NCBI GenBank assembly: GCA_947507965.1
Contig: CANNQU010000031.1
Coordinates: 1-38,290, forward strand
Length of the DNA stretch: 38,290 nt
Direction of reading: 5' to 3'
Source: Bacteroidota bacterium
GTDB taxonomy: Bacteria > Bacteroidota > Bacteroidia > UKL13-3
Made by a program: the position numbers and the translations under genes. The notes beneath the pieces are model-generated. The model worked only from the letters and a program-made list of their open reading frames with translations. It made no database searches and was not told the origin of the DNA. This document shows positions 185 through 18,900 of the stretch, in pieces; positions within the stretch are counted from its first letter, which is position 1; every line of letters begins with the position of its first letter.

Positions 185-2539
185 ATGTCCATTTCAATAT
201 ATAAAAATGCCCTCGATACGGTGGGCAGCACCATCGAACTTTCAGAGGCACTCGATAAAATAAAATCAGGTTTTTGGCAAGACGAAGTACTTACCGTACG
301 CAATTTGTACGACGATAAAAACGCTTACAGCGAAGCGAAAAAGAAATTACCTGCCATCACCTGGAGCGGTAGTTTCGAAGTGCGGAAAGCAGATAAGCTG
401 CAACAGCAAAGCCATATCATTTGTTTGGACATTGATAATGTTCCGGAAATAAATGAGATGAAGGAACACCTTTGCGGGGATCCTTATGTTTATGTTGCTT
501 TCATTTCTCCCGGTGGCAATGGCTTGAAGTTGTTGGTAAGACTGGAACCCCTCCCGCCAGAGGAACACCGCAAACAATTCTTAGCACTCGAGAACTACTT
601 TAAATTAATTTACAATATTAAGCTTGATGCCAGTGGGAAGGACATCAACCGACTTTGCTTTGTGTCGTTTGATGACAATTTGTTCCGGAATGAAAAATCA
701 AAACAATTCAGTTTCCATTATTTCCATTTTGAACGTTGCATCGAATTTACCAATCGCATTAAAACCTATGTGGAAGGGCAACGCAATGATTATGTTTTTG
801 TATTGGCGAATAACTGCAACAGGGTGGGAATACCACAGGAATGGGCTATAAATTACATCACGGCACATTTTAATGATCTCGACCAGAAAGAAATTGCAAC
901 CGTGGTTCATAGTGCCTATAAAGCGCTGAAAGAACACGGCATGTATCCCATTGGGAAACTCGATTTGGAAAACAAACAACGCGAAGTAGCGGTAAGCCGT
1001 GAAGAAGAAAATACTCCTTTAAAATACCAATACGAGAAGGGTGATTTTTGGAAGGTAACCACCTATTACGACCGGAAGACCGGAAAAGAGAAAGAGGAAA
1101 TTGCCCTGGTGCATTTGGACTTTCTTGATTTTTTATATAGAAACGGTTTCGGGTTGTATCGCACAAGCAATAACGAACAGGATTATGAATTTGTGAGGAT
1201 TGTAGACAATGTGGTTTACCCAGTTCAGATTCTTTCGATCAAAAAGTTTACTCAGGATTATGCCGAACGTGAAATAAAAGACAAGCGTGTACAATCTATG
1301 TTGGTAAAAGGCTCTAAGACGTATTTTAGTAAGGATTTATTGGAAGCACTTCCGTTTTTGAAACTTATATTTCTGCGTGATACCGAAGACCGGGCACATA
1401 TTTATTTTAAGAACTGTTTCGTGCAAATCACTCCCGATAAAATTGTTTCCAAGCCATATAGCGAGTTGCAAGGACATATCTGGAATTCCCAAAAGTTGGA
1501 ACGCGAATTTCATTTACAGGAAGTGAGTAATGAAGATGATATTACCTGTCAGTTCTCCGTGTTTTTAGCATTGGCATCAGTGGGCGAAAAGGTAAACAAT
1601 AAAGATACCGACGAAAAAGTAAAGACCGAGTACGGCGCTAAAATGCTGAGCCTGATGAGCACCGTGGGCTATTTATTACACGGCTATAAAAACCCCGCCA
1701 TTGCGAAAGCAGTGGTGGCGGTGGATGCGAAAATTAGCAGTGCGAGCGAGGCGCACGGTGGCTCCGGTAAAAGTATTTTTAGCAAAGCCATAGGTATGAT
1801 GGTGCGAGTTCACCGCATTGATGCGCAGAATTTCAAGTTCGATGGTACTTTTCCATACGATGGTTTGGCACAGTCGCACCGGATCATTGACTTTAACGAT
1901 GCCGGGGAGCGTTTTGATTTTACCAAAGCTTTTTCTATTATCACCGAAGACATGCTGGTGGCCCGGAAATACTTGGGTGCGATGTTATTGGCTTACGAGG
2001 ATTCTCCGAAGGTATATGTTTCCACCAATTATACTTTAAAAGGCGATGGAGGCAGCCATGCCCGCAGGCAGCATATAATAGAGTTTGGCGATTTCTTTAA
2101 CCCGAACAATACGGTGAAGGATTATTTCAAAACTACTTTCTTTAGTAAGGATTGGCGTGCCGAAGAATTTGAATTGTTTCACAAATTCATGCTGCTTTGT
2201 ATACAAACCTATTTAAACGAAGGGCTGGTTCCTTACCCAGTATGCAATTATGCCGAGCGCAAATTATTGGCTTCAATGCCTTTGGAGTTCATTGACTATT
2301 TTGATGAGGTGATTTTACACCGCTGCACCTACAACCCCGGAGAACGCAATAATGATAACCCATTGGAAATGCTTTACAACGAATACAAAGAGGCGAATAA
2401 AAACTCGGATATTAAACAAGCCACTTTTACAAAATGGATTAGCAAAATTTCCGATCACCGTAAATTAATTCTGAACCCGCACACTTCAGGTGAACGGGAT
2501 AGAAGAGGTAATAAAACGTATTTGACGTTTTGGAGGTAG
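185..2539 (+). CDS. VirE_N / SF3-helicase-like primase protein (mobile-element type)
   Basis: This 784-residue protein has the architecture of Bacteroidota mobile-element primase/helicase proteins. The first ~200 residues resemble the VirE N-terminal (BT4734-like) domain, with a primase-like core: the acidic cluster CLDIDNVP near residue 80 and the segment SPGGNGLKLL near 110. The C-terminal half looks like an SF3/D5-type helicase. It has a Walker A motif (GGSGKS, about 525-531), a Walker B-like HRIIDFNDAGE and the sensor-type KVYVSTNY. The likely role is replication initiation for a plasmid, phage or integrative element. No other replication or transfer gene lies beside it, so it may be a remnant or cargo of an island. 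The start follows the hairpin cluster at 1-133, and no clear ribosome-binding site is visible. Base composition is closer to the core genes at the right of the window than to the AT-rich operon that follows. Confidence 0.8.
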   Translation: MSISIYKNALDTVGSTIELSEALDKIKSGFWQDEVLTVRNLYDDKNAYSEAKKKLPAITWSGSFEVRKADKLQQQSHIICLDIDNVPEINEMKEHLCGDPYVYVAFISPGGNGLKLLVRLEPLPPEEHRKQFLALENYFKLIYNIKLDASGKDINRLCFVSFDDNLFRNEKSKQFSFHYFHFERCIEFTNRIKTYVEGQRNDYVFVLANNCNRVGIPQEWAINYITAHFNDLDQKEIATVVHSAYKALKEHGMYPIGKLDLENKQREVAVSREEENTPLKYQYEKGDFWKVTTYYDRKTGKEKEEIALVHLDFLDFLYRNGFGLYRTSNNEQDYEFVRIVDNVVYPVQILSIKKFTQDYAEREIKDKRVQSMLVKGSKTYFSKDLLEALPFLKLIFLRDTEDRAHIYFKNCFVQITPDKIVSKPYSELQGHIWNSQKLEREFHLQEVSNEDDITCQFSVFLALASVGEKVNNKDTDEKVKTEYGAKMLSLMSTVGYLLHGYKNPAIAKAVVAVDAKISSASEAHGGSGKSIFSKAIGMMVRVHRIDAQNFKFDGTFPYDGLAQSHRIIDFNDAGERFDFTKAFSIITEDMLVARKYLGAMLLAYEDSPKVYVSTNYTLKGDGGSHARRQHIIEFGDFFNPNNTVKDYFKTTFFSKDWRAEEFELFHKFMLLCIQTYLNEGLVPYPVCNYAERKLLASMPLEFIDYFDEVILHRCTYNPGERNNDNPLEMLYNEYKEANKNSDIKQATFTKWISKISDHRKLILNPHTSGERDRRGNKTYLTFWR

Positions 2540-2896: not shown

Positions 2897-3343
2897 ATGA
2901 TTAAATCCGAATTTTGTAATATGTCAGATGTCCACGATCAGGAGACCAGAAGTTATAACATGAGTCAAATAAAGGGGAAGGATACCAAACCTGAACTTAT
3001 TGTTAGAAGGTTTCTTTTTGCGAATGGTTTTCGGTATAGGATTCATGATAAAAAGCTTCCATGGAAACCAGATATTGTAATGAGAAAATACAAAACCGTG
3101 ATTTTTGTTCAGGGTTGTTTCTGGCATGGACATTCAAACTGCAAGTATTTTAAACTGCCTAAAACAAGAACGAATTGGTGGAAATCCAAGATTGAGAATA
3201 CCATAAATAGGGACTCGGAAAATATTTTAGTCTTAAAGAAGGAAGGTTGGAAAGTAATTTGCATATTTGAATGTTCTTTAACAAGTGCAAATAGAACTAA
3301 AACACTTTCAAGAGTAGTAAAAGAGTTGAATAAAAATAACTAA
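2897..3343 (+). CDS. vsr: Very short patch repair endonuclease (Vsr)
   Basis: Vsr nicks DNA 5' of the T in T:G mismatches that arise when 5-methylcytosine deaminates, and so protects methylase target sites. The protein is full length for the family (148 residues). It has the family landmarks in order: MSQIKGKDTKPE near the N terminus, a basic FRYR segment, KPDIVM with the catalytic Asp, the FVQGCFWHGH block with the zinc/active-site His, and PKTRTNWW. Two starts are possible. The upstream ATG at 2897 gives 148 residues. The ATG at 2921 (MSDVHDQETR) fits the family N terminus better and may be the true one. The methyltransferase gene starts 7 bp after the stop, which is the classic vsr-dcm pairing. 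In this operon type Vsr could also supply a nicking activity for restriction, but that is inference. Confidence 0.93.
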   Translation: MIKSEFCNMSDVHDQETRSYNMSQIKGKDTKPELIVRRFLFANGFRYRIHDKKLPWKPDIVMRKYKTVIFVQGCFWHGHSNCKYFKLPKTRTNWWKSKIENTINRDSENILVLKKEGWKVICIFECSLTSANRTKTLSRVVKELNKNN

Positions 3344-3350
3344 CGTAATT

Positions 3351-4604
3351 ATGCACAAATTGAATTTTATTGACCTTTTTGCAGGTGCCGGTGGACTCTC
3401 AGAAGGGTTCATTAGGGCTGGGTTTGAGCCAATTGCTCACGTAGAAATGGATGAGGCAGCATGTTTCACTTTAAAAACCCGGGCTGCCTACCACTTTCTT
3501 AAGTCAGAAAATAAATATGACATATATATATCCTATTTGAAAGGAGAAATTTCTAGAGAAGAATTGTATTCTCACTTACCTAAAGCTTTATTAGACTCCA
3601 TTATAAATCTTCCTATTGGTCCTGAATTGAATTCGTACGTGCATAATTCCATCTCAAAATTAAGGAAAGGCCGAAAAATTGATTTGATAATTGGAGGCCC
3701 TCCATGCCAAGCATATTCCTTGGTAGGCAGAGCCAGATCTGATGATGGGATGAAGAGTGACCCACGAAATAATTTGTATATAGAGTATGCGGGATATTTG
3801 GAAGAATACAATCCTAAAATGTTTGTATTTGAAAATGTAGTTGGATTGAAGTCAGCGAAAGGGGGGGCATATTTGCGTAAGATGGAAGAGCTCTTTTTGG
3901 CAAAAGGTTACCAGATGAAACTTTTTACACTTGAGGCAACCAATTTCGGGGTACTTCAAAAGAGAAGAAGAGTTGTTATAATTGGATGGAAAAAGGAATT
4001 AGATATTGTTCTCCCTGATTTTGAGGTAATTAGAAATGAATCTAATTTTAAGGTAAATTTATTACTTAAAGATTTACCCAAAATTCAAGCAGGTGAAGGA
4101 GCAGATAAGTTTTTAAAATACCTTACAAGAACCAATTCCTATTTAAATCAAAGCTTTATCCGCAACGGTATTGATATTTTAACTCAACATGTGGCCCGTC
4201 CTCACACTGATCAGGATAAAGAAATATATAGAATTGCAATCCAGAAATGGGATAGTCAAAAAGAACGATTAAACTATAATGATTTACCAGAACGTTTAAA
4301 AACTCATAAAAATAGATCTTCCTTTTATGACCGGTTTAAAGTGGTTGCATCAAATGAACCGCATTCGCATACTGTTGTAGCCCATATTTCTAAGGATGGT
4401 CATTACTATATTCATCCCGATATTGAACAGAATCGTTCAATAACTATTCGTGAAGCCGCGAGGTTACAATCCTTTCCGGATGATTATTATTTTGAAGGGG
4501 TTAAAGAGGGGGCCAATAGGACTGCAGCGTTTAAGCAGATTGGCAATGCAGTGCCACCATTAATGGCAAAGAATATTGCTAAAAAAATAAAAAATTTATT
4601 ATAA
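3351..4604 (+). CDS. dcm: DNA (cytosine-5-)-methyltransferase
   Basis: This is a C5 cytosine methyltransferase that transfers methyl from SAM to cytosine in a specific sequence. The motifs appear in canonical order. The SAM-binding FIDLFAGAGG is motif I (residues 6-15). GGPPCQAYS is motif IV, with the catalytic Cys near 119. ENVVGL is motif VI near 161, QKRRRVVIIGW is motif VIII near 203, and IGNAVPP is motif X near 397. The variable target-recognition region lies between about 240 and 360, and its specificity cannot be read. An extra ~80 residues between motifs I and IV make this domain longer than in HhaI-type enzymes. All catalytic landmarks are intact, so it should be active and provide self-marking for the restriction operon. 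Its stop overlaps the next start (TAATG). Confidence 0.95.
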   Translation: MHKLNFIDLFAGAGGLSEGFIRAGFEPIAHVEMDEAACFTLKTRAAYHFLKSENKYDIYISYLKGEISREELYSHLPKALLDSIINLPIGPELNSYVHNSISKLRKGRKIDLIIGGPPCQAYSLVGRARSDDGMKSDPRNNLYIEYAGYLEEYNPKMFVFENVVGLKSAKGGAYLRKMEELFLAKGYQMKLFTLEATNFGVLQKRRRVVIIGWKKELDIVLPDFEVIRNESNFKVNLLLKDLPKIQAGEGADKFLKYLTRTNSYLNQSFIRNGIDILTQHVARPHTDQDKEIYRIAIQKWDSQKERLNYNDLPERLKTHKNRSSFYDRFKVVASNEPHSHTVVAHISKDGHYYIHPDIEQNRSITIREAARLQSFPDDYYFEGVKEGANRTAAFKQIGNAVPPLMAKNIAKKIKNLL

Positions 4605-6733
4605 TGACAACAACTCCCATTCAGACTGGAGAATCAATATTAAGACCCAAAGCTAGGCTTATTAAGACCATTGGCGAAGAGTTAATTAGTAATGACATAG
4701 TAGCGATAATTGAATTAGTAAAAAACAGCTATGATGCTAATTCTCCAATTGTTGTAATTGAGTTTAAAGGAACAATTGAAAAAGTAAAGGAGGGCAAAAA
4801 AGAAAAGAGGGTAATATTGAAAGAAAATTCAAGCATATCAATATTAGATGAAGGCTTGGGGATGGACTTAAAAATAATCGAAGAAGCATGGATGGAACCA
4901 GCTACCACTTATAAAAAGAAAGTGGTAAATGAAAATAAGATCAGAAGATTTACTGGCGAAAAAGGCATAGGAAGGTTTGCTTCAGCAAAATTGGGAAGCC
5001 TGCTAAATATTTACACAAAAAAGGTTAATGATAACGAGGTTGTAGTAAATTTTAATTGGAATGATTTTTCTGATGAAGAAAAATATTTAGATGATGTAAA
5101 AACTAAATGGGAAGTAAGGCTTCCAAATAAAATAATTGATAGTGGAACGGTTTTGGAATTAGAAAATCTTTGTACATCTTGGGATGAAAATAAAATTCGA
5201 GAATTAAGAATAGCATTATCAAGATTATTAAGTCCAATAGCACCATCCGAAGATTTTTTAATTGAATTAAAATTGCCTGATGGCTTAGATGATTTAAGTG
5301 GGCTGATAGAACGTCCAGAAACTTTAAACAAACCTGATTATTATATAAAGGGAAATGTATCAAGTGAAGGTATTCCTTCCTTGGCTTATTTCAGCAAAAA
5401 AGAAAAAAAAGAAATAAAGCTAACCTTGTCAGAAACCGAATTTCAATTACGTAACCCAATTCGTAACTCACTTTTGGGTCCGTTTAGCTTTGAATTTAGA
5501 GTCTGGAATAGGGATGATGATTCAATCAAAAACCTTGCAACTGAAGTCGATTCTTCAGTAAAAAATATAAAAAGTGATTTAAACGATTTAGCGGGTATTA
5601 GTATTTATAGAGACAACTTCAGAGTTTTACCGTATGGTAATAAAAATGATGATTGGCTTAATTTGAATATTAGAAGGGTAAATAACCCTACATTAAGATT
5701 GAGTATTAACCAAATTGTTGGCTATGTATCCATCGGCTTAGATTCAAACCCTGAACTGAAAGACCAAAGTAATCGGGAAGGAATCGTAGCAAGCCAAGCA
5801 TTTGAGGATTTAAAAGAATTCGTTAAGCTAATATTTAATGAACTTGAAATAAGGAGATATACAGAAAGGCCAAGAGAAAATGAGACTGTAATTCAGAATA
5901 AGGAAAGCCTCTTTGCAAGATTCTCACTAGCATCAATTTCAACTTATATCCAGGAAATACTCCCCAATAACAAGGAGGTTTTAGAAGTAATTCAAAAGAA
6001 GGATATTGAAATTCAGGAGGGGGTTAAAAAAGTACAGGAAGTTATTTCAAGGTATAGACGATTAACGACATTGGGGCAATTAATAGATGTGATTTTGCAC
6101 GATGGAGGTAACTATTTAGGAAAGATTGATGCACAAGCAAATATTATCAAAAAGGAGTTAGATAAAAAAGTTATTAATAATGATGTAATAAAAGAGAGTG
6201 CGAATAAAATTGTTAAAACAAGAGAAAACTTTGCTCAGCTTTTTAAACGCATCGAACCATTTGGAGGAAGAAAAAGAGGGCGTCCAAAATCAATTATAGT
6301 TGAGGATGTAATCAAAGACCAATTTTTATTAGCACACAGGGAAATTGAAAAACTCAATATCGAATATACGATACCGGATTCAAAAAATCATGTAACTATA
6401 GATGAAGCCGAGCTTGGTATCATATTAATGAATCTCATACAAAATTCAGTTTACTGGTTAGAATCAATACCAAACGAAAAGAAAATCGAGGTTCTTGTGC
6501 AACGAGAACCAGATGCACTTTCAATTATTTTCAGCGATAATGGCCATGGTATTAAAGAAGGCACAGAGGAATCAATATTTGACCCATATTTCAGTACTAA
6601 ACCAGATGGCATTGGTTTAGGATTAACAATTGTTGGTGAGTTGATTTCTGAATACTATGGCGATTTTCATTTAATAAATAACGGCCCGCTAGAAGGGGCA
6701 TCATTTAAAATAACCTTTAAATATAGAATATAG
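4604..6733 (+). CDS. Double-GHKL protein: MORC/Hsp90-like ATPase fused to a histidine-kinase module
   Basis: This 709-residue protein carries two separate GHKL ATPase folds. The N-terminal one is of HATPase_c_3 (MORC/Hsp90-like) type, with an N-box containing E37, N41 and D44, a DEGLGM box at 82-87 and TGEKGIGRF at 117-125. Residues ~240-430 look like a mixed transducer region. The C-terminal part is a classical histidine kinase: an H-box-like LHDGGNYLGKI with His near 499, the N-box NLIQNSVYWLE near 610, DNGHGI near 645, FDPYFSTK and GIGLGL near 669. Between the two kinase parts lies RKRGRPK (about 556-562), which resembles an AT-hook. No membrane segment is evident, so it should be cytoplasmic. 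The next gene encodes a receiver-domain protein and starts directly after the stop, suggesting a phosphorelay pair. The substrate or signal is unknown; DNA or methylation state is a plausible input, which is inference. Confidence 0.85.
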   Translation: MTTTPIQTGESILRPKARLIKTIGEELISNDIVAIIELVKNSYDANSPIVVIEFKGTIEKVKEGKKEKRVILKENSSISILDEGLGMDLKIIEEAWMEPATTYKKKVVNENKIRRFTGEKGIGRFASAKLGSLLNIYTKKVNDNEVVVNFNWNDFSDEEKYLDDVKTKWEVRLPNKIIDSGTVLELENLCTSWDENKIRELRIALSRLLSPIAPSEDFLIELKLPDGLDDLSGLIERPETLNKPDYYIKGNVSSEGIPSLAYFSKKEKKEIKLTLSETEFQLRNPIRNSLLGPFSFEFRVWNRDDDSIKNLATEVDSSVKNIKSDLNDLAGISIYRDNFRVLPYGNKNDDWLNLNIRRVNNPTLRLSINQIVGYVSIGLDSNPELKDQSNREGIVASQAFEDLKEFVKLIFNELEIRRYTERPRENETVIQNKESLFARFSLASISTYIQEILPNNKEVLEVIQKKDIEIQEGVKKVQEVISRYRRLTTLGQLIDVILHDGGNYLGKIDAQANIIKKELDKKVINNDVIKESANKIVKTRENFAQLFKRIEPFGGRKRGRPKSIIVEDVIKDQFLLAHREIEKLNIEYTIPDSKNHVTIDEAELGIILMNLIQNSVYWLESIPNEKKIEVLVQREPDALSIIFSDNGHGIKEGTEESIFDPYFSTKPDGIGLGLTIVGELISEYYGDFHLINNGPLEGASFKITFKYRI

Positions 6734-7822
6734 ATGAACATCAGAGTACTTTTTATTGACGATGAAGATATTAGGGATGATTTGAAACAAAATTTCGATG
6801 ATTTAGAAATTAGTGGGTTTACATTAAAAGCAGATGTTGCAGAAACATTTGAAATTGGTATTGAAAAAGTGAAGTCTCTTAATTATGATTTAATTGTTTT
6901 AGATTTATGCAGAGGACCTGCTTCAGACACTGCTGAACAGGAAGGGTTAAGTGTTCTTAAAGAAATTCAAGAATTTACTTTTGTACCTGTTGTTTTTCAT
7001 TCAGCAGTTGCATATAAAATAGAAAGTTTAAGGTCAGTTGTAGTAGGTGTTTCAGATAAAAAAGACGGTATTCAAATTCTAAAGCAAGAAATTGAACGTA
7101 TAATTTCATCAAATCTTGTATTGCTAAAAGAAAGAATCCATAGGCATATTGAAGAGGAGTTCAAAAAATATTTTTGGGATACAATCCATTCCAAGAGGGA
7201 TTTATTTACACCAGAATCAAATGATGTTTCATTAGGTTACTTAATGCTTAGAAGGTTAGCAAATTCATTGTCTAAGCAAAATATAAGGGAACTAATAAAG
7301 GATTCGAGAATAACGGGAAAAGCATTGCCTATGGAATTTTATGTTTTTCCGGTTGCTCCCAAAAAAGAATATGAAGCAGGTGACATTTTGGAAAAAGAGA
7401 ATGACATTTTTGTTGTACTTACTCCAGATTGCGATTTTGTTGAGAGGTTTAAAGGGGAACTGAATTTAGGCAGAAAGGTTGGTAAAGTTCTTTTAGCAAA
7501 GGCAAAGAAATTAGAAGAATTTAGCCAGTATTCTAATTTCAAAGCAACTCCCAACAAGGATACAAATAATAAGTTAAGTGAGCTTATAAGAAATAACATC
7601 TCTGATAGATATTTCTTCATGCCAAACACTCCGTTTATTCAAAATCAAATTGTTGATTTTCAGGATAAAATAATGGTTGATTATTCGGAATTAAATTCAT
7701 TTTCAAATATTGCAAAATTGGATGCTCCCTTTGCTCAGTCAATGACATCATCCTTTATAAGATACTATAATAGAATTGGTTTTCCTGATATTGATGTTGA
7801 TTATGTAATTCAAAAACTTTAA
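6734..7822 (+). CDS. Receiver-domain protein with an uncharacterised C-terminal domain
   Basis: The first ~125 residues form a response-regulator receiver domain: acidic pocket D9/D10, phosphoacceptor D57 in YDLIVLDL, Ser in VVFHSAV and a Lys in the DKKDG segment. The remaining ~235 residues match no DNA-binding output domain that I recognise. They contain LTPDCDFVERF near 235 and a mixed alpha/beta pattern. The natural partner is the histidine-kinase-like product of the preceding gene. Start and stop abut their neighbours (0-bp gap upstream, TAATG overlap downstream), so stoichiometric co-expression is likely. Because an HTH is lacking, phosphorylation may control a protein complex rather than transcription; that is inference. 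Receiver identity is fairly secure. The C-terminal function is unknown. Confidence 0.8.
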   Translation: MNIRVLFIDDEDIRDDLKQNFDDLEISGFTLKADVAETFEIGIEKVKSLNYDLIVLDLCRGPASDTAEQEGLSVLKEIQEFTFVPVVFHSAVAYKIESLRSVVVGVSDKKDGIQILKQEIERIISSNLVLLKERIHRHIEEEFKKYFWDTIHSKRDLFTPESNDVSLGYLMLRRLANSLSKQNIRELIKDSRITGKALPMEFYVFPVAPKKEYEAGDILEKENDIFVVLTPDCDFVERFKGELNLGRKVGKVLLAKAKKLEEFSQYSNFKATPNKDTNNKLSELIRNNISDRYFFMPNTPFIQNQIVDFQDKIMVDYSELNSFSNIAKLDAPFAQSMTSSFIRYYNRIGFPDIDVDYVIQKL

Positions 7823-8196
7823 TGGAAAGCAATCATAAATTTGCTCTAAATTTGTCGTATTATTTATCTTGTTTTGATAAAATAGCGTATGAGCATTTGG
7901 GATTTGGGAAGCAACAACTTACTCATAAAAGAATCGGTGAAATATTAGGAATTAATCCTAATACCATTCAAAACTGGCGAGACCAATTCGACCCTATACA
8001 TGGGAATCGAAAAGGTTGGTATCAGAGAGAAATGACACAAAGTAGATTGAATTTCGTTAGAGCACTTGTGGGTTTGAACGAATCAGATGTTAGAGGTGTA
8101 TCTAAAATAAACCCAAAGAAAATTATTTATACGACAATTCAAATAAATTGGAGTGTAACAGAGAACCAACTATTCGAATTAATTTGTTTTCGTTAA
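7822..8196 (+). CDS. Small HTH-like protein of the restriction operon
   Basis: This is a 124-residue protein of unknown function. The central part (LTHKRIGEILGINPNTIQNW, about 34-53) reads as a helix-turn-helix, followed by a conserved-looking FDPIHGNRKGWYQR stretch. A similar arrangement, as I recall, occurs as an N-terminal domain on some restriction endonucleases; this was not verified. Here it would be a stand-alone version. It could be the DNA-recognition adaptor or the operon regulator. Start and stop both overlap neighbouring genes in TAATG junctions (7820-7824 and 8194-8198), which supports it as a real translated gene despite its size. Confidence 0.7.
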   Translation: MESNHKFALNLSYYLSCFDKIAYEHLGFGKQQLTHKRIGEILGINPNTIQNWRDQFDPIHGNRKGWYQREMTQSRLNFVRALVGLNESDVRGVSKINPKKIIYTTIQINWSVTENQLFELICFR

Positions 8197-9716
8197 TGAG
8201 TGAAAAGAGAAATATACTGTCCGAGGCAGCAGACCCAAATCCTGAATATCTAATAAAATCTATTGCAGAGCAAGGATATAGTTTGGAATCATCTTTAGCC
8301 GACCTAATGGATAATTCTGTTTCAGCAAATGCAGATAAATTAGAAGTGCTGATTAAAATGGATGAGGAGCCATTTACTTTATTTATTGCTGATAATGGTG
8401 ATGGGATGAATGAAGAATTTCTTAAAGCAAGTATGCAATTCCCAAGTAAATCACCAGAAGATACAAGGCATACGCTTGACTTGGGAAGATTTGGATTAGG
8501 AATGAAGACAGCATCATTTTCTCAGACAAGATGCTTTACTGTTTTGTCTAGGAAGAAGGGAACAAAAAAATATTTCGGCAGAACATGGGATGTTAATTAT
8601 CTAAAGCAGGTGGGTAAATGGCGATTGCTGGTTAACACAGAAGTAGAAATTAAAAAACTAATTGCACAATATCATTCAATAAGCGAAGGGCATATAAATC
8701 GGTTTGAAAATTTTGAAGCTAATACAATAGTTGTTTGGAAAGGACTTTACAAGTTTGAGAATTATCTTGAAGAGGCAAACAGACAAAACGCATTGAAGAA
8801 ACAAATAAGTGAAGTCACCTCAGATTATTTATCTTTGGTGTTTCATCGGTTCATGGAACGAAAGGTTAATCCGTTAAACATTAGAATCAACAATAATCGA
8901 ATTGCCCCCTTCAATCCTTTTCCTTCTGTTAATGACTTCCGTCCTATAGAATACAAGCAAAAAAATTTCAGCACTGATACGATTAAGATAGAAGGATTCG
9001 TTTTACCTTCCCGAAGTATTGATGAGAGTCAAAGTGGAATTTCCATCTGGACGACAAAGAACAGAAGTTTGATGGACATGGAAGGTATTTACATTTATAG
9101 AACTGACAGGCTTATTCACTTTGGTGGATGGAATGGTTTAATTAAAAAAGTTCCAAGACTTCAGTTGGCCAGACTTCGTGTTGAAGTCGGTAATAGTGTT
9201 GACCATTTGTTGCACTTGAATGTAGCCAAGTCACAGGTCGTAATCCCTCACGATTTAACAACAGCGTTTGAGAAGTATATTGAAGAATTGAAAATTGAAG
9301 CAGAGAGAGAGTTCTTCAATAAAGGCATTCGCAAGTTTTCAAACAACCGCAAAGAGGATAATGTTCAACTATTTGAAAGGAAGGCATCTAACAAAGGTAC
9401 ACTCCTTGAACTAAATAATAATTTCTCATTGCTCCGAACATTGAGGGATGGTTTAAAAAAGGAACAGCTTATAAAGTTGAATTTAGTCATTCGGATGATT
9501 AATACAAGAATCAATCATATTAGACAAACTCATGAAGAGAAAGCTTTCGTAGGAATTGAAGAGAAGGACGGGTTATCATTGAAAGATTTTATAATTTGTA
9601 TAAATGAATTGAAGGAAAGTGGTCTTTCGTCCGAACACATAAAACGTGACATACTTCCAAATCTTGGGTTTACGGAAGCTTCACTTCCATCAGAAATAAT
9701 GCACCTACTAAAGTAG
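8196..9716 (+). CDS. MutL/MORC-like GHKL ATPase
   Basis: This is an ATP-binding protein of the HATPase_c_3 class. The N-box region reads LADLMDNSVSA (D36, D39, N40), with DNGDGM at 66-71 and the glycine lid LGRFGLGMKTAS at 96-107. The position usually held by the catalytic Glu of the N-box is Asp (D36), a form I recall being common in bacterial MORC-like ATPases. Downstream lies a probable S5-like transducer and an alpha-helical tail. The start was moved from 8148 to the ATG at 8196. This gives the same TAATG overlap seen at neighbouring junctions and removes 16 residues that do not look like the family. GHKL ATPases of this type are known from predicted restriction systems, where they are thought to clamp or reshape DNA. 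Expected length is 506 residues. Confidence 0.87.
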   Translation: MSEKRNILSEAADPNPEYLIKSIAEQGYSLESSLADLMDNSVSANADKLEVLIKMDEEPFTLFIADNGDGMNEEFLKASMQFPSKSPEDTRHTLDLGRFGLGMKTASFSQTRCFTVLSRKKGTKKYFGRTWDVNYLKQVGKWRLLVNTEVEIKKLIAQYHSISEGHINRFENFEANTIVVWKGLYKFENYLEEANRQNALKKQISEVTSDYLSLVFHRFMERKVNPLNIRINNNRIAPFNPFPSVNDFRPIEYKQKNFSTDTIKIEGFVLPSRSIDESQSGISIWTTKNRSLMDMEGIYIYRTDRLIHFGGWNGLIKKVPRLQLARLRVEVGNSVDHLLHLNVAKSQVVIPHDLTTAFEKYIEELKIEAEREFFNKGIRKFSNNRKEDNVQLFERKASNKGTLLELNNNFSLLRTLRDGLKKEQLIKLNLVIRMINTRINHIRQTHEEKAFVGIEEKDGLSLKDFIICINELKESGLSSEHIKRDILPNLGFTEASLPSEIMHLLK

Positions 9717-9721
9717 AATTT

Positions 9722-12700
9722 ATGGAGAATAAATACATAGACATAATAATCAAAATCATTGCAAGAAAGGCAAAGGAATATTCATTAAATAACTCTCTTT
9801 CGCCAAGCTATTTTCTGAATCTGTTGCCGGAGATTAAATTATCTATCATAGCAGTAATAAATGCCTATGGGTATGCTGAAATTGACGAAGTCACTTTGAA
9901 AAATTATTATGAGACTGCAAAGAATCAATATTTATCTGTTAACCCAATTGACATTGACCCAAGCAACTCATTAACTAAAAAAGATTTCAGGACCTGGCTG
10001 ACCGCTGACAGAAAAGAGCAAATGAAAAACGACTGGAATTATAGCGACCGGTATTTCACACTTCTTGAAAAGGCAGGTCGTTCTGAAAAGGTTATTGAAG
10101 AAACGCGAAAAACTAGCCTTGAGATATTGGAAAAAATGGGTGACCCAAAATCGAAAGAAGCATTTTATGTTAAAGGGCTAGTTGTGGGTAGTGTGCAAGC
10201 CGGTAAGACACAAAATTTTAATGCAGTAATAAACAGAGCAATTGATTCCGGCTACGGCTTAATAATTGTTCTTGCGGGTTTAATGGAAGACTTGAGAAAT
10301 CAAACCCAGTTAAGAATTGAAAGTGATGTGGTAGGAGAAGGTCTTGATATTGACACTGATAATTTGGTAAAGAAAGGAGTTGGAACTATAAGAAGATTTG
10401 GCAACTTAGGAGATAGCAGTATCAATCAGGTGATTTCAATTACATCCGCAAAATCTGATTTTAAAAAATCATTACTTGATGCTGATTTCTCTCTGAACCA
10501 AACTAATATTCTGGTATGTAAAAACAATGTAAATGTGCTTCGCAATTTGATCGTTTGGCTACATGATTATTTGGAAGAAAATAAAGAACAACACAATATT
10601 CCTTTGTTAATACTTGATGATGAAGCTGACAACGCATCATTGAACAACGAAGGGAAAAAAGGAAGAGAGTATGCATCAAAAACAAATGGACACATCAGAG
10701 CTTTACTGGAATTATTCAAACGAAAAACATATTTAGGCTATACAGCAACACCATTTGCAAACATTCTTGCTGACAGAAATGATGCACCAGAAAATAATTG
10801 GATTGTAAAATATAAACTCAGAGGTCAACAGGAAGAAAAATCACTTCCACAAGTTCCCAATCTTTTTCCTGATGATTTTATTGTATTACTGAATCCACCA
10901 ACAAATTATGTCGGAGCCAAACAAATCTTTGAAACACTTAAACCAATTGAAAATAGCTTACAATCAAAAATTCCTTTGGTTGAACTTGTAAACGACAATA
11001 TTGAAAATTTTCCTGACAGAGTTTACGGACAAAGCAACGGAGAATTAATTGGAGTTCTCAAAATCAACAACCTTAATGAATGGCAAGAGAGGTTTGGCCA
11101 GTTTGGTTCTTATTTAGACTTTGCTGATTACAGAGAATACAGAAGACTGACGAGGGCATCAAGACCGGGGGATAATTTTCCCAGACACTTACCAGATTCA
11201 ATTAAAGAAAGCATCCTCTGTTTTATTCTTTCGATTGCTATTAGGGAAAGCCGGAAACCTGCAATGATTAATTCTACGATGTTTAATCCACATAATTCAA
11301 TGTTGATTCACATTTCAAGATACACCTTATGGCAAAACAAACTTAAAGCTTTAATAGATGTTTATATCCGTGACTTGCAAAGTAGTTTGCTGCTTGATGA
11401 TCCAGGAAATCCAAAATCGGTCTTTTCAACTTTTGAAAAAATATGGTACAAGTTCTATTCAAATATTATTGAGCTTGTGTCTGACTACTTGCCGAAAGGA
11501 TATGATGATGAATTCCTCAAGCCAATCAGTTTCGAAACAATCAAAAATAATTTCCTGACAGATGCTATAAAAGACATAGAAGTTAAAGCAATTAATAGCC
11601 TGACAGGAGATAAACTTATTTACCCAAGAAATACCCCGAAAAAATATATCGCAATCGGTGGGAATAGATTGTCCCGTGGGTTTACCCTAGAAGGTTTAAG
11701 TATTAATTATTTTGTTCGTTCTACAGATTATTCAGATGCACTTCTGCAAATGGGTAGATGGTTTGGCTATCGGCCAGGTTATTTGGATTGCTGCAAACTC
11801 TTCATCACCCGCGATTCAATGGAGAAATATGATTTAGTAACTAGGACTATAGAAGAACTTGAAATTGAATTTAAGAAAATGGAAGAAAGTATCCCTCCAA
11901 AGACACCGGCTAATTTTATTCTTCGGGTAAAAAAGCATCCTGGAGCCCTTAAAATTACAAGACCTTCTATTCTGAGTGATACTTTAGAAGTGAATTGGTC
12001 TTATCAGGATTCACTGGAACAATCTACAAACTTCGACTTACGAAAGAAAAAGATCGAGGATGTTTGGACACAATTTAAAAATAACATAGTTGGCAAGTTC
12101 AAGTTTGAGACTAAAAAGAAAGAAGACGGAAGTGATGCAGGGTTTCTTACAGCACAAACAGATATTGCCGGTGTATTAGAAATTCTTGAACAGGAAAATA
12201 ATTTTGGAAATGAAACATGTGACAGCATAATAAAATTCATTGAGAGATGCCGGGAAGTGAATAAGTTGACGAATTGGACAGTAGCAATTAAGACCACAGG
12301 TAGAGCAAAAGAGAATGAAGGCAAAGGGATATTAAAAAAGAATGAATCGAATTTGCCTATTGATATTACAATGACGATTAGAAGAGGTCCGTCCACAGAC
12401 GAGGGGGTGAAATATTTCAGAGAGAAATTTATACACGGAAAAGTTTTTGGTGCTTCTGGAAGGTCTGCGAACCTTATTTCGGCTGGTTTAGACTTATCAA
12501 TACTTTTAAGTATAACACAGATAGAACAATCGGAAAAAGAATTTATTGAAAACAGAAGAACTTATTATCATGGCAAATATCCTGACTGGACAAAAGAACA
12601 AGTTAATAAAAAAGCAGAGGAAGTAAACATTCCGGAAAGAGTTTACCGTGAGAAAATGACAGACCAAGAAGGGCTCTTGGTAATATACATTTTGGATTCT

Positions 12701-12940
12701 CATTATGTGTTTCTCCAGGAGGAAGGAAAAGAAAAAGATTCGGAACTAAAAGAAATGATAGATAAGGAAGGGATTGATTTAAACATACCTCTGATTGGTT
12801 ATGCAATTGGGTTTCCCCCTATTGAACCAGACCCAGGCGGAGTTTATGTGCATGGGAATTATGGATTTGAAGATGAGGAAACAGAATTGGAATTTAACGA
12901 AACAGATTCGGAATTACCAGCTGATGCAAATGAATTATAA
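9722..12940 (+). CDS. Z1-domain SF2-helicase-like ATPase/endonuclease
   Basis: This 1072-residue protein has a P-loop helicase-like core. Walker A GSVQAGKT is at 156-163, Walker B LILDDEAD near 297-303, and motif III-like GYTATPFAN at 339-347. A C-terminal RecA-like block has GNRLSRGFTLEGL near 645 and QMGRWFGYRPGY near 680. The combination TATPFAN plus LSRGxTLEGL plus MGRWFGYR is the signature of the Z1 family, found in operons with MutL-like ATPases, DUF4420 and AIPR proteins. The likely role is an ATP-driven DNA translocase or remodeller that powers restriction. The C-terminal ~350 residues have no recognised domain and end in an acidic tail. It starts 5 bp after the MutL-like gene. Confidence 0.92.
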   Translation: MENKYIDIIIKIIARKAKEYSLNNSLSPSYFLNLLPEIKLSIIAVINAYGYAEIDEVTLKNYYETAKNQYLSVNPIDIDPSNSLTKKDFRTWLTADRKEQMKNDWNYSDRYFTLLEKAGRSEKVIEETRKTSLEILEKMGDPKSKEAFYVKGLVVGSVQAGKTQNFNAVINRAIDSGYGLIIVLAGLMEDLRNQTQLRIESDVVGEGLDIDTDNLVKKGVGTIRRFGNLGDSSINQVISITSAKSDFKKSLLDADFSLNQTNILVCKNNVNVLRNLIVWLHDYLEENKEQHNIPLLILDDEADNASLNNEGKKGREYASKTNGHIRALLELFKRKTYLGYTATPFANILADRNDAPENNWIVKYKLRGQQEEKSLPQVPNLFPDDFIVLLNPPTNYVGAKQIFETLKPIENSLQSKIPLVELVNDNIENFPDRVYGQSNGELIGVLKINNLNEWQERFGQFGSYLDFADYREYRRLTRASRPGDNFPRHLPDSIKESILCFILSIAIRESRKPAMINSTMFNPHNSMLIHISRYTLWQNKLKALIDVYIRDLQSSLLLDDPGNPKSVFSTFEKIWYKFYSNIIELVSDYLPKGYDDEFLKPISFETIKNNFLTDAIKDIEVKAINSLTGDKLIYPRNTPKKYIAIGGNRLSRGFTLEGLSINYFVRSTDYSDALLQMGRWFGYRPGYLDCCKLFITRDSMEKYDLVTRTIEELEIEFKKMEESIPPKTPANFILRVKKHPGALKITRPSILSDTLEVNWSYQDSLEQSTNFDLRKKKIEDVWTQFKNNIVGKFKFETKKKEDGSDAGFLTAQTDIAGVLEILEQENNFGNETCDSIIKFIERCREVNKLTNWTVAIKTTGRAKENEGKGILKKNESNLPIDITMTIRRGPSTDEGVKYFREKFIHGKVFGASGRSANLISAGLDLSILLSITQIEQSEKEFIENRRTYYHGKYPDWTKEQVNKKAEEVNIPERVYREKMTDQEGLLVIYILDSHYVFLQEEGKEKDSELKEMIDKEGIDLNIPLIGYAIGFPPIEPDPGGVYVHGNYGFEDEETELEFNETDSELPADANEL

Positions 12941-12942
12941 AT

Positions 12943-13911
12943 ATGACAAGTACAGAGCTTAAACAAAAATGGTCAGGACTTTCAGACAATACTGTTACAA
13001 GTGGCTTCAGGTCGTTGAGAGTATCCTCTGCATGTATCTGCGAACTTTATATTGGAGTCAGCAAGGACAATAAACGATGTTTAATTCTTGCACTACCAGC
13101 AAACAAACATTTAAACTTCAAGGGAATTCAAAAAGAAAATTTATCCATCGAATATTTCTTAGAAAAAAACTTGATTGTACTTCAATTAATTGATAATGAT
13201 TACCACGACCTCTTTGACGACCTCATACTTTCTCTATATCATGGGATAAAAGACATAATTCAAGTAGATGAATATTCAAATCATTTTATTGAGGCTTTTT
13301 ATAGGTGGAGTGAATTTTTTGAAGACAAAAAATCAGATTCACTTTCAGAGGATGCTATAAAAGGTCTCATGGGTGAATTGTTGGTTCTGAAATTTTTAAT
13401 CACTTACCCTAATAGAACAGAGATTAATTTTATTTTGAATTCCTGGAAAGGTCCTTATGATAAAGGGAACGATTTTGAACTGGAAACAAAAAATTTAGAA
13501 GTAAAAACAAAATCACCTTCTGGCATTGATGTAAGTATATCAAGTGAATTTCAATTGGAAGTATCCACAGGAAAAGGGCTTGAATTGATTGTTGTTTCCT
13601 TGTCAAGTGATTTTACTGTTGGCATTTGTATTCGGGAGTTAATTTTTGAAATAAAGATACTGGTCCAAGAATCTTCGGGAGAAAATTCAATATTATGGAA
13701 AGCGTTGAGCCAGAAAAATATCACTGCAAAAAATGTTAGTCAGTACGATAAATATAAGTTTAAGCCCATAAACAGTATTTCATACAACTGTGCATCGGAC
13801 GATTTTCCAAAACTAAACAGGTCAAATATTCCTGATGAGATAAGTGGCCTCAAATACAACTTGAGAACAAATCTTTTGACCTCATTTATAATCGATCAAA
13901 CAGATTTTTAA
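12943..13911 (+). CDS. PD-(D/E)XK motif nuclease (DUF4420 type)
   Basis: This 322-residue protein fits the DUF4420 / PD-(D/E)XK motif family. The likely catalytic set is E145 in MGELLVL, D177 in GNDFEL, and E186-V-K188 in LEVKTKS, giving the D-x8-E-x-K spacing typical of restriction-type nucleases. This family sits beside Z1 proteins in MutL-linked restriction operons and is the best candidate for the DNA-cutting subunit. The gene lies 2 bp after the Z1 gene and 1 bp before the AIPR gene, so the three are almost certainly made together. No signal peptide or membrane segment is seen. Confidence 0.88.
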   Translation: MTSTELKQKWSGLSDNTVTSGFRSLRVSSACICELYIGVSKDNKRCLILALPANKHLNFKGIQKENLSIEYFLEKNLIVLQLIDNDYHDLFDDLILSLYHGIKDIIQVDEYSNHFIEAFYRWSEFFEDKKSDSLSEDAIKGLMGELLVLKFLITYPNRTEINFILNSWKGPYDKGNDFELETKNLEVKTKSPSGIDVSISSEFQLEVSTGKGLELIVVSLSSDFTVGICIRELIFEIKILVQESSGENSILWKALSQKNITAKNVSQYDKYKFKPINSISYNCASDDFPKLNRSNIPDEISGLKYNLRTNLLTSFIIDQTDF

Positions 13912-13912
13912 T

Positions 13913-16528
13913 ATGCGCATTCAAGAGTTCCTGAATTACAGGAAAGATTTACTCGAAACCTCAAAAGATGAAGAGGGATTTGTACAGCAAGCTCAATTGC
14001 TAAGCCAAATTCTTCCTCTAATGGTTGATGCTAAATTACTTGATTCGGAAGACTGGAATGACTCGTACTTTTTGAATAATATAGAGAATTTAAAATTGAA
14101 TGGATATACAGTTAATGAATCCTCTGAACGACTTCAGCTTTTTATTATAGATGAAGCAAGCATTGAAATTAATGCTTCCGAAAAAGACTTGCAGGTTTCC
14201 ACCAAAAGCCATTATGATAACCAGTTTAAAAGAGCAACTAAATTTTTAAACAAGGCAATCAAAGGATTCTTAAATGATGAAGTGCAGGATGCTGACCCAA
14301 TTAGACCTTTGTTATCCCAGCTTTCATCAACAAAAGGTGCAGAACAGTTTGATGTAGTTGAAGTTTTTTTAGTGAGTGCTACAGCTACAATAGAAACCCG
14401 TGGTACAATACCACAACCTAAGAGAATAGAATTTGAAGATGAATCAATTACAGTAGGTTTTACAAGAAACAGAGAAAGAGTAAAAAAGGATTTACTCATT
14501 ATCAAGAAATTGGTAGACCTCAATTTTTTATACGATGTGATGATTTCTCAGGGTAACAGAGAAGCATTGGTTATTGATTTCCAAAATTTATTTAATTACA
14601 AAATTGAAGTTATAAAGGCAGCAGAGGAGGAAAACTTTGAATCATACCTCTGTGTATTACCTGCTAACATATTATCTGAACTTTATAAAAGATTCAGCTC
14701 AAGATTACTTGAAAAGAATGTCAGGTCGTTTCTGCAATTCAAAGGTGCAAATAAGGGAATAAGAGAAACGATAAGAATAAGCCCTGAAAAATTTATTGCA
14801 TTCAATAATGGTATTACTATTACTTCTACAGCAAAAGAATTTGAAGTAGTAAATGGTAAAATGTTTATAAAGTCGCTAACTGATTTTCAAATTGTAAATG
14901 GAGGGCAGACTACCGCAAGCATTTATTTTACTCAGAAAGACGGTTTTCCAATTGACCGAGTAAAAATAATGGCAAAGATTAATGTTGCTTTAGATGTTAC
15001 TGAGGATGGATTAGACTCATTAATTTCAGATATAAGCAGATATTCAAATTCTCAAACTAAAGTTTCTAATGTTGATTTAAGTTCGAGAAGCCCTCAACTA
15101 AATAGACTTAAAGCCCTCTCCGACAGCGTTGTTACACCATCTGGTAGGAAATGGTTCTTTGAAAAATCAAGAGGTGATTTCAATACCAAGTTAAGAATTG
15201 CAGGATCAAATAAAGCCAGGATTGAAAAGGAGTATCCAAAGAATTATCGTTTTACAAAGGAACAGTTAGGTAAATATTTTACTGCGTGGGGAGAACAACC
15301 ATTCAATGTAAAAAAAGGTGGTGAAAAAATTTTCAGATACTTTTTAGAAGAAATTACAGGAGAGACTAAGGGTAAGAAGGCTATTAACGTTAACAGAGAG
15401 TTTTATGAAGAGTTAATTTCAAAAATTATTTTGTTTATTGAATTGGAAAAAGTTTATGGACAGGGAAAGCATTCAATGGGTCAATTAAGATCAGCGGTTA
15501 TTCCATACTCGATTTCTATAGTTTACATCTTTACAGATGGAGCTAAACAGGGGAAGCAATTTGATCTTTTGAAAATATGGAAAAAAGAAAAACTTGAAGA
15601 TGATTTAATCGAATTCTTTACTAGTTTAATGTTATTAATGAATAACTTAATAAAAGAGTATTCTGAAAGTGATGATATTGCTTATGGCACTTTGAGTAAA
15701 AGTTTATGGGATAAAATTTCAGTTTGCAAGGAGATTGTAAAATTTATGAACTCAAAAATTGCACTTGAAATATTGAAGAAATATTCCATTCCAGTTAAAG
15801 AGAAAAGGACTTCTGATGATAAGGAAGTTGATTTTGAGAGAATACAAATGAATATTGAGGTGCTTTCTAAAGGAATGGATTTTTACAATGAAGTAAAAAA
15901 GCATTACAAGGGGCTTTCAAAACTTCAGGAGAAAAAAATTGATGGGATCATTTCATCAATAATTAAGGAGGAAGATTTAGGCGAAGATATTTTAAAATTT
16001 GAGAGCAATCTCTTGACAGAAATTAGAAAAAACAGTCCAGAAATATTTGACAAAATAGACATAACGTATAACTACCTTCTTGAGAGTACCTTGAAGTTTA
16101 TTGTTTTAAAATACAATCACGCGCTAGAGAAGGGAATTGATTTAGAAGACTATTTTAAAGCGATAGAAAAAAAGGCAGTCGAGGAAAAAAACAAGAATGC
16201 ATCTGCATTTAATAAGATTGCAAATAATCTTACTAAGGGAATAGCCCCTTCGGTTAAGGAGGTTCTGCTAGCATCCAATTATTTCACAAAAGAACTATTT
16301 GGCGAAAGTTCAAGTCAAAAGAAAACAACTCCTGTACCTAATATAAATCTTAGTATTCTAAAGCAGATGGTGGAATGGGAGTCTAAAATGAAAATATTAT
16401 CAACCGGAGAAAGAACCTATCTAGCAGAATTGGCTTATGAACTTAAATCATTAAATCCTTTTCATAAAACGAATGCTGAAAGACATTTAAAAACCTTAAT
16501 GAGAGCCGGATTCAAAATAATTACTTAA
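13913..16528 (+). CDS. AIPR-family protein (abortive infection/phage resistance)
   Basis: This 871-residue protein has the AIPR core. It includes FIAFNNGITIT near residue 295 and FQIVNGGQTTASIYF near 325-340, preceded by a region with KRIEFEDESITVGFTRNRERV. AIPR proteins occur in phage-resistance loci and in Z1/MutL-linked restriction operons. Their biochemical activity is not established, and nuclease or nucleic-acid sensing is often suggested. The C-terminal ~350 residues are Lys/Glu-rich and probably helical. It is the last gene of the plus-strand operon and converges on an HNH gene 26 bp further on. Confidence 0.88.
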   Translation: MRIQEFLNYRKDLLETSKDEEGFVQQAQLLSQILPLMVDAKLLDSEDWNDSYFLNNIENLKLNGYTVNESSERLQLFIIDEASIEINASEKDLQVSTKSHYDNQFKRATKFLNKAIKGFLNDEVQDADPIRPLLSQLSSTKGAEQFDVVEVFLVSATATIETRGTIPQPKRIEFEDESITVGFTRNRERVKKDLLIIKKLVDLNFLYDVMISQGNREALVIDFQNLFNYKIEVIKAAEEENFESYLCVLPANILSELYKRFSSRLLEKNVRSFLQFKGANKGIRETIRISPEKFIAFNNGITITSTAKEFEVVNGKMFIKSLTDFQIVNGGQTTASIYFTQKDGFPIDRVKIMAKINVALDVTEDGLDSLISDISRYSNSQTKVSNVDLSSRSPQLNRLKALSDSVVTPSGRKWFFEKSRGDFNTKLRIAGSNKARIEKEYPKNYRFTKEQLGKYFTAWGEQPFNVKKGGEKIFRYFLEEITGETKGKKAINVNREFYEELISKIILFIELEKVYGQGKHSMGQLRSAVIPYSISIVYIFTDGAKQGKQFDLLKIWKKEKLEDDLIEFFTSLMLLMNNLIKEYSESDDIAYGTLSKSLWDKISVCKEIVKFMNSKIALEILKKYSIPVKEKRTSDDKEVDFERIQMNIEVLSKGMDFYNEVKKHYKGLSKLQEKKIDGIISSIIKEEDLGEDILKFESNLLTEIRKNSPEIFDKIDITYNYLLESTLKFIVLKYNHALEKGIDLEDYFKAIEKKAVEEKNKNASAFNKIANNLTKGIAPSVKEVLLASNYFTKELFGESSSQKKTTPVPNINLSILKQMVEWESKMKILSTGERTYLAELAYELKSLNPFHKTNAERHLKTLMRAGFKIIT

Positions 16529-18580: not shown

Positions 18581-18581
18581 A

Positions 18582-18899
18582 ATGAAAAAGGGAATTGTTT
18601 TTAAAAAGGACATCGAAGCCGGAAAGGTTTGGCAAGATGAATCCGGATTCGGTTTTCAATATAAAGCGGACTATTTGAAAAATCCGAAGTATGGCCCCGT
18701 TAGCAGAACTTTACCATTGCGTGAAGAAGCATTTACTGATGAAACGATATTGCCATTTTTTGATGGCTTGATTCCTGAAGGTTGGCTCTTGCAAATTGCA
18801 ATTGATAATTGGAAGCTTAATCCGAGAGATCGTATGAATTTGCTTCTTACCCTTTGTCATGATTGCATTGGTGATATAAGAATTATAAAAGAAAAATAA
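18582..18899 (+). CDS. hipS: HipS-like protein (HipA N-terminal subdomain)
   Basis: This 105-residue protein corresponds to the N-terminal subdomain of HipA, here a separate gene. It has the family motif FFDGLIPEGW near 63-72, then a helix and the ending GDIRII. In the E. coli O127 HipBST system the equivalent protein, HipS, is the antitoxin that inhibits the kinase HipT. That role is inferred here from gene order and similarity. It sits between hipB (1-bp gap) and the kinase gene (1-bp gap). Confidence 0.85.
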   Translation: MKKGIVFKKDIEAGKVWQDESGFGFQYKADYLKNPKYGPVSRTLPLREEAFTDETILPFFDGLIPEGWLLQIAIDNWKLNPRDRMNLLLTLCHDCIGDIRIIKEK

Positions 18900-18900
18900 G

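Follow-up and report, generated by a model that had tools for sequence, protein, structure and literature searches.

A predicted double-ATPase sensor kinase and its adjoining receiver in linkage with DNA methyltransferases in a Bacteroidota genome

Kinase and receiver genes of the locus

We analysed a 38,290-nucleotide stretch of DNA from a Bacteroidota bacterium (GenBank assembly GCA_947507965.1, contig CANNQU010000031.1), hereafter referred to as the window, which encodes a histidine kinase carrying two GHKL ATPase domains in a single chain. The gene for a response regulator begins at the base immediately after the stop codon of the kinase gene; this second gene was absent from a preliminary description of the kinase that had been made from the sequence alone. 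The kinase protein is designated P0001 and the adjoining receiver protein P0002, and L and G numbers denote relative loci and genomes, respectively. The features of the two genes are as follows.

4604..6733, + strand: double-GHKL sensor kinase P0001 (open reading frame, Pfam, AlphaFold 2 (AF2) model, structure comparison and alignment)
P0001 residues 9-422, + strand: paraMORC-like GHKL+S5 module (model and structure comparison)
P0001 residues 457-520, + strand: helical linker with the long helix of the dimerization and histidine phosphotransfer (DHp) domain, containing His499 (AF2 model)
P0001 residues 526-553, + strand: DHp helix 2, which pairs with helix 457-520 as the DHp hairpin (AF2 model)
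6269..6289, + strand: RKRGRPK AT-hook-like peptide, P0001 residues 556-562, in the linker between DHp and the catalytic and ATP-binding (CA) domain (motif; clade-specific)
P0001 residues 562-709, + strand: CA kinase ATPase (model and Pfam)
6734..7822, + strand: response regulator P0002, with a REC domain at residues 1-128 and a C-terminal domain with a TPxCD motif (profile, fold and conserved residues)

Taken together, the data presented below make it almost certain that P0001 is a sensor kinase that has its own receiver and is linked to DNA methyltransferases.

Domain structure of the kinase

The open reading frame is bounded exactly by positions 4604 and 6733 and encodes 709 amino acids. The first ATP site contains E37, N41 and D44, with DEGLGM at residue 82, and the kinase half contains His499, NLIQN at 610, DNGHGI at 645 and GIGLGL at 669. 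Pfam assigned HATPase_c_3 to residues 33-170 (E = 8.9e-19) and HATPase_c to residues 600-707 (E = 7.9e-15), and none of the Pfam DHp models matched the protein. The AF2 model, built from 58 aligned sequences, has a mean predicted local distance difference test score (pLDDT) of 86.8, and its sole stretch below 50 is residues 426-436.

In comparisons that used this predicted structure, residues 9-422 matched the mouse MORC3 ATPase (5ix2) with a Z-score of 25.1 and a root-mean-square deviation (rmsd) of 3.0 over 306 residues, and the N-terminal half also matched Hsp90 chains (Z approximately 21-23). The MORC2 ATPase with DNA was among the first Foldseek matches to the model. Residues 460-709 matched ZraS (9jfj; Z 22.2, rmsd 2.8, 173 residues), and the C-terminal part matched ThkA (3a0t; Z 21.6, rmsd 1.8, 146 residues) and HK853 (4jav; Z 21.4, rmsd 5.7, 207 residues). 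The N-terminal half thus has the features of a GHKL+S5 module, namely a Bergerat fold bearing the N, G1 and G2 motifs and, after it, an S5 domain, and a histidine kinase is indicated, in sequence and model, by the DHp hairpin, the phospho-accepting His followed by D/E, and the N, G1, F and G2 boxes of the CA domain. The preliminary description had proposed a MORC/Hsp90-like fold and a kinase fold in one polypeptide. Fold prediction and fold search of both halves bear this out, with the MORC3/Hsp90-type GHKL fold at the N terminus (residues 9-422) and DHp plus CA at approximately 457-709. Because three full-length relatives (L001, L012 and L013; 57-67% identity) share this layout, P0001 is not a gene-fusion artefact. 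The protein has no recognised membrane or PAS-type input domain; its input is the paraMORC-type GHKL+S5 ATPase.

The adjoining receiver

P0002 possesses the residues of a response regulator, the acidic pair Asp9/Asp10, the phospho-accepting Asp57 and Lys109, on a predicted REC fold. A profile built from 11 receiver sequences matched response regulators of known structure, the best match covering residues 5-102 at E = 2.8e-9. The model of residues 1-128 matched AdeR with Z 16.7 and rmsd 2.1 over 116 residues. A single-sequence Pfam search of P0002 gave a weak Response_reg match (E = 0.0012), which falls under the cut-off of that family. Asp10 and Asp57 are invariant in the 11 sequences.

An open reading frame of at least 150 amino acids follows the kinase gene in 94 of the 95 relative loci with downstream flank, 2 of the 97 loci being without flank. 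Among the resulting 95 receivers (94 from relatives and that of the window), Asp occupies the Asp57 column in 93, a count made without unrelated control sequences, the exceptions being L026 and L105; position 9 is acidic in 94 and position 109 is Lys or Arg in 78. In the branch of P0001, the receivers carry a second domain at approximately residues 130-362 with P-x-E-x-Y (PxExY) and TPxCD motifs. The receiver of L153 also ends in a TPxCD domain.

Conservation and distribution of the kinase family

The final alignment comprised 34 relatives obtained by plain protein search, 63 obtained by pattern scan and four full-length proteins of the HEF_HK family, which is compared with P0001 in the last section. 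The first two sets constitute the 97 relatives counted in this study, and L158 was left out of all counts. The 58-row alignment A3 and the viral loci were chosen by patterns spanning the first N-box and WMxPxT, so that their counts for E37, N41 and D44 are biased and the 34 relatives not selected by pattern represent the fair set. All 34 retain E37, N41 and D44; D82, G84, G86, M87, G118, K120, G121, G123 and R124; and N610, N614, D645, G671 and G673. His499 is kept in 34/34, 63/63 and 4/4 of the non-pattern, pattern and HEF_HK sets, respectively, and is directly followed by D or E in 33 of the 34 non-pattern relatives. The signature motifs are near-invariant across the 97 relatives, and His499 lies in a DHp helix of the model; the earlier proposals of two complete ATP sites and of a phosphorylatable His near residue 499 therefore hold. 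An arginine of the S5 region, R391, is likewise present in 34/34, 63/63 and 4/4, and its position suggests that it is a basic catalytic residue in S5 of the kind described by Iyer et al. 2008 (PMC2292703).

Relatives were found in Bacteroidota, Pseudomonadota, Campylobacterota, Fusobacteriota, Cyanobacteriota and Deinococcota and in one haloarchaeon. Strong matches to plasmids (E ≤ 1e-30) numbered 58 records, 41 of them from Campylobacter. At one locus on a Campylobacter conjugative plasmid (L031), the kinase and receiver genes face a C5 methyltransferase gene. Scanning viral contigs with plain P0001 yielded no relative, and viral relatives were found by the alignment scan alone. No experimental study of this kinase was among the matches listed from the open-licence PMC literature.

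Linkage to methyltransferase and nuclease-type genes

A neighbour test was run on 86 of the 97 relative loci; 16 of these were dropped for short flanks, and the remaining 70 had 2.5 kb or more on each side. Some of the queries used (receivers and methyltransferases) came from the tested loci themselves. The kinase has a methyltransferase gene no more than 3 kb away in 56 of the 70 loci (C5 in 36 and N6-type in 20), a figure obtained without a background from ordinary kinases, and a Vsr gene nearby in 14. The distribution of methyltransferase types was then compared with a kinase tree of 98 loci including the window, which was a quick tree without bootstrap and with long branches flagged. A single methyltransferase type was assigned to 69 loci (43 C5 and 26 N6), and 29 were dropped. 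The type changes 4 times on the tree, compared with 15-26 times (mean 21) in 200 shuffles.

All 26 N6-type loci have one of three genes downstream, at the distance at which the gene next to the receiver should lie: HNH (7), a metallo-beta-lactamase (MBL)-fold protein (8) or an unrecognised protein of approximately 250 amino acids (11). Nine of the 26 themselves supplied queries for these genes. The position directly after the receiver was read from the offset, with a gene-by-gene view for some loci and in some of the plasmid tables. Pfam confirmed HNH in 4/4 and Lactamase_B in 2/2 of the proteins tested and gave no match to four of the ~250-amino-acid proteins that follow the receiver. In the C5 half, the same queries found no such gene except an HNH gene in L063.

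Several loci form compact cassettes of an N6-type methyltransferase, the MORC-kinase, a short receiver and an HNH or MBL-fold protein (L071, L075, L078, L083, L040, L091 and L097; L025, L029, L030, L042, L044, L089, L090 and L094). The methyltransferase gene comes last in L091 and L097. By source, L040, L042 and L044 are from plasmids and L025, L029 and L030 from genomes, the others being contigs of the viral collection. The ~250-amino-acid protein follows the receiver in L092, L098, L101, L102, L106, L112, L117, L120, L133, L135 and L041.

Gene organization around the kinase

The kinase and receiver genes of the window are flanked by the following genes.

2897..3343, + strand: Vsr mismatch endonuclease (Pfam/profile match)
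3351..4604, + strand: C5 cytosine DNA methyltransferase, overlapping the kinase gene by 1 nucleotide
7822..8196, + strand: helix-turn-helix (HTH) protein of 124 amino acids, without the middle of its HTH/DUF3883-like counterpart in relatives
8196..9716, + strand: MzaB-like GHKL ATPase (reading frame listed from TTG at 8148; first ATG of the frame at 8196)
9722..12940, + strand: Z1-domain protein, MzaC-like (profile matches)
12943..13911, + strand: DUF4420 PD-(D/E)XK protein, MzaD-like (profile matches)
13913..16528, + strand: AIPR protein, the last gene of the head-to-tail run

All genes from 2897 to 16528 are arranged head to tail on the + strand with gaps of at most 7 bases or 1-base overlaps, and a pattern scan detected no terminator-like site on that strand between them. 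The nine genes from Vsr to AIPR apparently constitute one operon, as judged from this arrangement. The same gene order is present on a Hymenobacter plasmid (L032), with a DUF3883 protein replacing the small HTH protein.

Comparison with other genomes revealed that the operon is composite. In genome G025 (L217), a methyltransferase gene is followed directly by a gene for a 260-amino-acid HTH/DUF3883-like protein and then by the MzaB-to-AIPR genes, without a kinase or receiver there, and the genome contains no P0001 relative at E ≤ 1e-40. Positions 8101-16498 of the window share 75.7% DNA identity with G025, compared with residue identities of 54.5% for the methyltransferases and 42.6% for the HTH proteins to the left of approximately 8100. 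The product of the small HTH gene aligns with both ends of the 260-amino-acid protein, its residues 93-120 covering the C-terminus, and lacks the middle. These alignments place a module junction near 8100, inside the small HTH gene. In genome G003, the kinase is split between two contigs, its pieces being 73% and 76% identical, and the contig with the second half continues with the receiver (52%) and then an MzaB that is only 30% identical. L001 has the order methyltransferase-kinase-receiver, with no MzaB or Z1 within 8 kb downstream. On these comparisons, kinase and receiver represent a portable module of their own, which is joined to different downstream modules. We rejected the possibility that the pair is a standard part of MZA-like operons, because neither gene was found at any of 24 Z1 loci in viral contigs, several of which are incomplete and one only 4.1 kb long, or in the G025 operon.

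Other genes of the window were also recorded. An HNH endonuclease gene (16555-17355, - strand) lies on the opposite strand just past the AIPR gene. Genes for HTH, HipA N-terminal and HipA C-terminal proteins stand in a row at 18149-19833 (+ strand), as in a split HipBA-like toxin-antitoxin set, and a 1316-amino-acid protein with many WD40 repeats is encoded at 20160-24110 (+ strand). At 185-2539 (+ strand), a 784-amino-acid protein has a BT4734-like N-terminal domain (primase-polymerase-like) and PriCT_1, which suggests a mobile element beside the locus.

Proposed mechanism and alternative explanations

The best reading of these data is that kinase and receiver act together as a single portable unit within a restriction/defence locus centred on a methyltransferase. 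As to how it works, we tentatively favour, as possible rather than probable, an ATP-gated sensor of DNA state whose phosphorelay controls restriction or defence. In such a sensor, a P0001 dimer would be held by the DHp bundle, and ATP binding would close the N-terminal GHKL heads over DNA to form a ring like those of Hsp90, MutL and MORC. DNA of a particular state (e.g. unmethylated or foreign) within the ring would switch between kinase and phosphatase activity at His499, closure, or failure to close, shifting the DHp bundle between the two states. The phosphate would then pass from His499 to Asp57 of the receiver, and the phosphorylated receiver may release or activate a restriction arm: its own TPxCD domain, perhaps the Z1/AIPR module in this locus, or the HNH or MBL-fold protein in relatives. 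A narrower version, which we regard as more doubtful, is that the MORC-type DNA ring on the kinase dimer reads cognate methylation, so that a His-Asp phosphate, instead of direct recognition by a nuclease, licenses restriction.

Several points weigh against this reading. DNA binding by the N-terminal module is deduced from its predicted fold only, and the mechanism as a whole is built on sequences and models. It is also possible that the nucleases work independently of the phosphorelay. The counts of methyltransferase neighbours and of receiver Asp57 lack the background and control sets mentioned above, and the co-inheritance signal in part reflects simple linkage of neighbouring genes. In 14 of the 70 flanked loci no methyltransferase was found within 3 kb, so that this partner is either dispensable or escaped detection there. 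The operon contains promoter-like sites, one of them just before the kinase gene at 4576-4605 (53 sites, compared with a chance mean of 58.9 in shuffles), and its genes may therefore not share a single transcript. The C-terminal domain of the receiver is a candidate output domain, but an effector role is a guess, because this domain belongs to no recognised family, has no PDB profile match and is poorly predicted: the model of the whole receiver has a mean pLDDT of 73.4 and a predicted template modelling score (pTM) of 0.44 and is weakest in parts of that domain. The Foldseek and VIA lists for this model were filled by REC matches.

In the main rival explanation, the pair is an ordinary two-component regulator. 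Its receiver would adjust how strongly the methyltransferase and restriction genes are transcribed, or how much of their protein is present, so that, once the locus has entered a new host, methylation comes before restriction; the input of the MORC half would be the nucleotide or metabolic state and not DNA. The position of the kinase-receiver pair in an operon between the methyltransferase and other genes is consistent with this, as are the HTH gene directly after the receiver and the suggestion by Bellieny-Rabelo et al. 2021 (PMC8011034) that related kinases sense nucleoside triphosphates and control restriction-modification (R-M) systems. However, the receiver has no recognised output domain for DNA binding, of HTH or other type, many receivers of the N6 branch are only 209-228 amino acids long, and the HTH gene is without its middle in the window and was not detected at the corresponding site of G003 (L146). 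We therefore consider plain control of R-M gene expression a serious but rather doubtful explanation.

A second alternative, which we judge to be unlikely, holds that the MORC half is the working part, looping or bridging DNA for restriction, that the kinase half regulates this motor or is a pseudokinase, and that any phosphorelay is secondary. DNA looping or bridging has been proposed for paraMORCs by Iyer et al. (PMC2292703), who also noted that MORC/paraMORC genes cluster with R-M genes, and the GHKL+S5 fold with its conserved R391 agrees with such a role. A pseudokinase is nevertheless hard to reconcile with the near-invariance of the kinase motifs and His499 and with the receiver, with its Asp, that almost always adjoins the kinase.

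The basic RKRGRPK peptide provides a third. The preliminary description had likened it to an AT-hook, which stands as a motif of one clade and fails as a family trait. An AT-hook RGRP core with basic flanks is found only in P0001 and four close relatives (57-76% identity to P0001): KRGRP lies at the linker site in P0001, L001, L012 and L013, and the fragment L010 carries GRKRGRP at the same site. The chance expectation of [KR]RGRP[KR] from composition is 8e-5, and no such core is present in the linkers read from six kinases of the same genome, a seventh locus having given no N-box match. However, the linker site lacks the core in all of the remaining 94 relatives among the 97 scanned. In A3, it occurs in 2 of the 58 rows, 41 of which have Lys or Arg at position 558; elsewhere in the family a variable, often basic DHp-CA linker replaces it. 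The expression used to search the relatives also matches at other positions in eight more relatives, and at a second place in L012, so that short GRP/RGRK strings are not rare. The corresponding DNA pattern matched 31 loci in viral contigs, with a P0001 relative in none. In addition, the peptide sits in the DHp-CA linker, which must stay free to move in a kinase. The AT-hook was thus rejected as a general family feature; the peptide is conserved within its own clade, where it may matter, and the family, to judge from the alignments, manages without it. That the kinase reads DNA through an AT-hook tethering it to AT-rich DNA is therefore very improbable.

If the ATP-gated DNA-state sensor exists, this widespread family may allow the cell to convert a DNA state into a phosphate signal, and the MORC-kinase fusion would offer a built-in readout, since phosphate on His499 or Asp57 would report engagement of the ATPase. 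Such a readout would make DNA, methylation state and nucleotide testable as inputs in vitro and would provide a handle on MORC modules in R-M loci. If, furthermore, the phosphorelay gates the nuclease, the methyltransferase-kinase-receiver-nuclease cassettes (HNH or MBL-fold) would represent an R-M class in which modification and restriction are separated by a signalling step, one of amplification and switching-off that is missing in classical R-M enzymes.

Comparison with known systems

The double-ATPase kinase architecture is already known. Bellieny-Rabelo et al. (PMC8011034) reported HATPase_c_3+HEF_HK+HATPase_c proteins (174 of 222) with receiver partners and a link to R-M genes, proposed their descent from paraMORCs and called bacterial MORCs poorly understood. 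P0001 is a distinct branch of this architecture. The HEF_HK/Response_reg_2 pair and P0001 have in common the HATPase_c_3, DHp and HATPase_c order, the adjoining receiver, and C5 methyltransferase and Vsr genes nearby, and the matches of P0001 to four full-length HEF_HK proteins run collinearly through the first ATPase, the S5 region and the kinase (E = 5.2e-25 to 5.1e-37). These four are longer (966-995 amino acids, compared with 709) and form their own starred clade in a 102-row quick tree, and the open frames of the eight receivers that exceed the PF19192 cut-off are 526-580 amino acids long. Membership as defined by Pfam was rejected: P0001 had no HEF_HK (PF19191) match at E ≤ 10, P0002 had no Response_reg_2 (PF19192) match at E ≤ 10, none of the 11 members of receiver alignment A4 matched PF19192 at E ≤ 0.1, and genome G000 contained no match to either family at E ≤ 0.01. 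The border between the two branches is soft, because 5 of the 35 members of alignment A2, P0001 not among them, reach HEF_HK at E ≤ 0.1.

The P0001 locus also resembles the R-M operons in which MORC and paraMORC genes cluster, sharing the GHKL+S5 module and a neighbourhood of DCM, Vsr and AIPR genes. MORC3 is the best structural match of its N-terminal half. An assignment to MORC proper was rejected, as the MORC-specific S5 motif GhXhhpXXRhl (PMC2292703) is present in none of the 58 rows of A3, a form longer by one residue being present in 35. paraMORC families 1-5 are defined by family-specific C-terminal extensions (restriction-endonuclease fold, TIR, ExxxH and others), in place of which P0001 has a kinase, and a kinase fusion is not described in the consulted part of the paraMORC account of Iyer et al.

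The GHKL, Z1, DUF4420 and AIPR genes of the window are of the kind found in the MZA anti-phage module (MzaB/C/D in NCBIfam and PADLOC). Their scores stay far below the NCBIfam cut-offs (182.5 against 850, 371 against 1500 and 85.4 against 420; the AIPR protein was outside the scan), and neither a kinase nor a receiver was found at the 24 viral-contig loci, some of which are truncated, or beside the module of G025. With kinases of the NtrB/ZraS/HK853 type, P0001 shares the DHp+CA half with all of its boxes and differs in its input, which is a second GHKL ATPase. Finally, the pair is comparable to Detocs, a two-component phage defence system with a kinase-receiver pair in which the receiver is tied to an effector.

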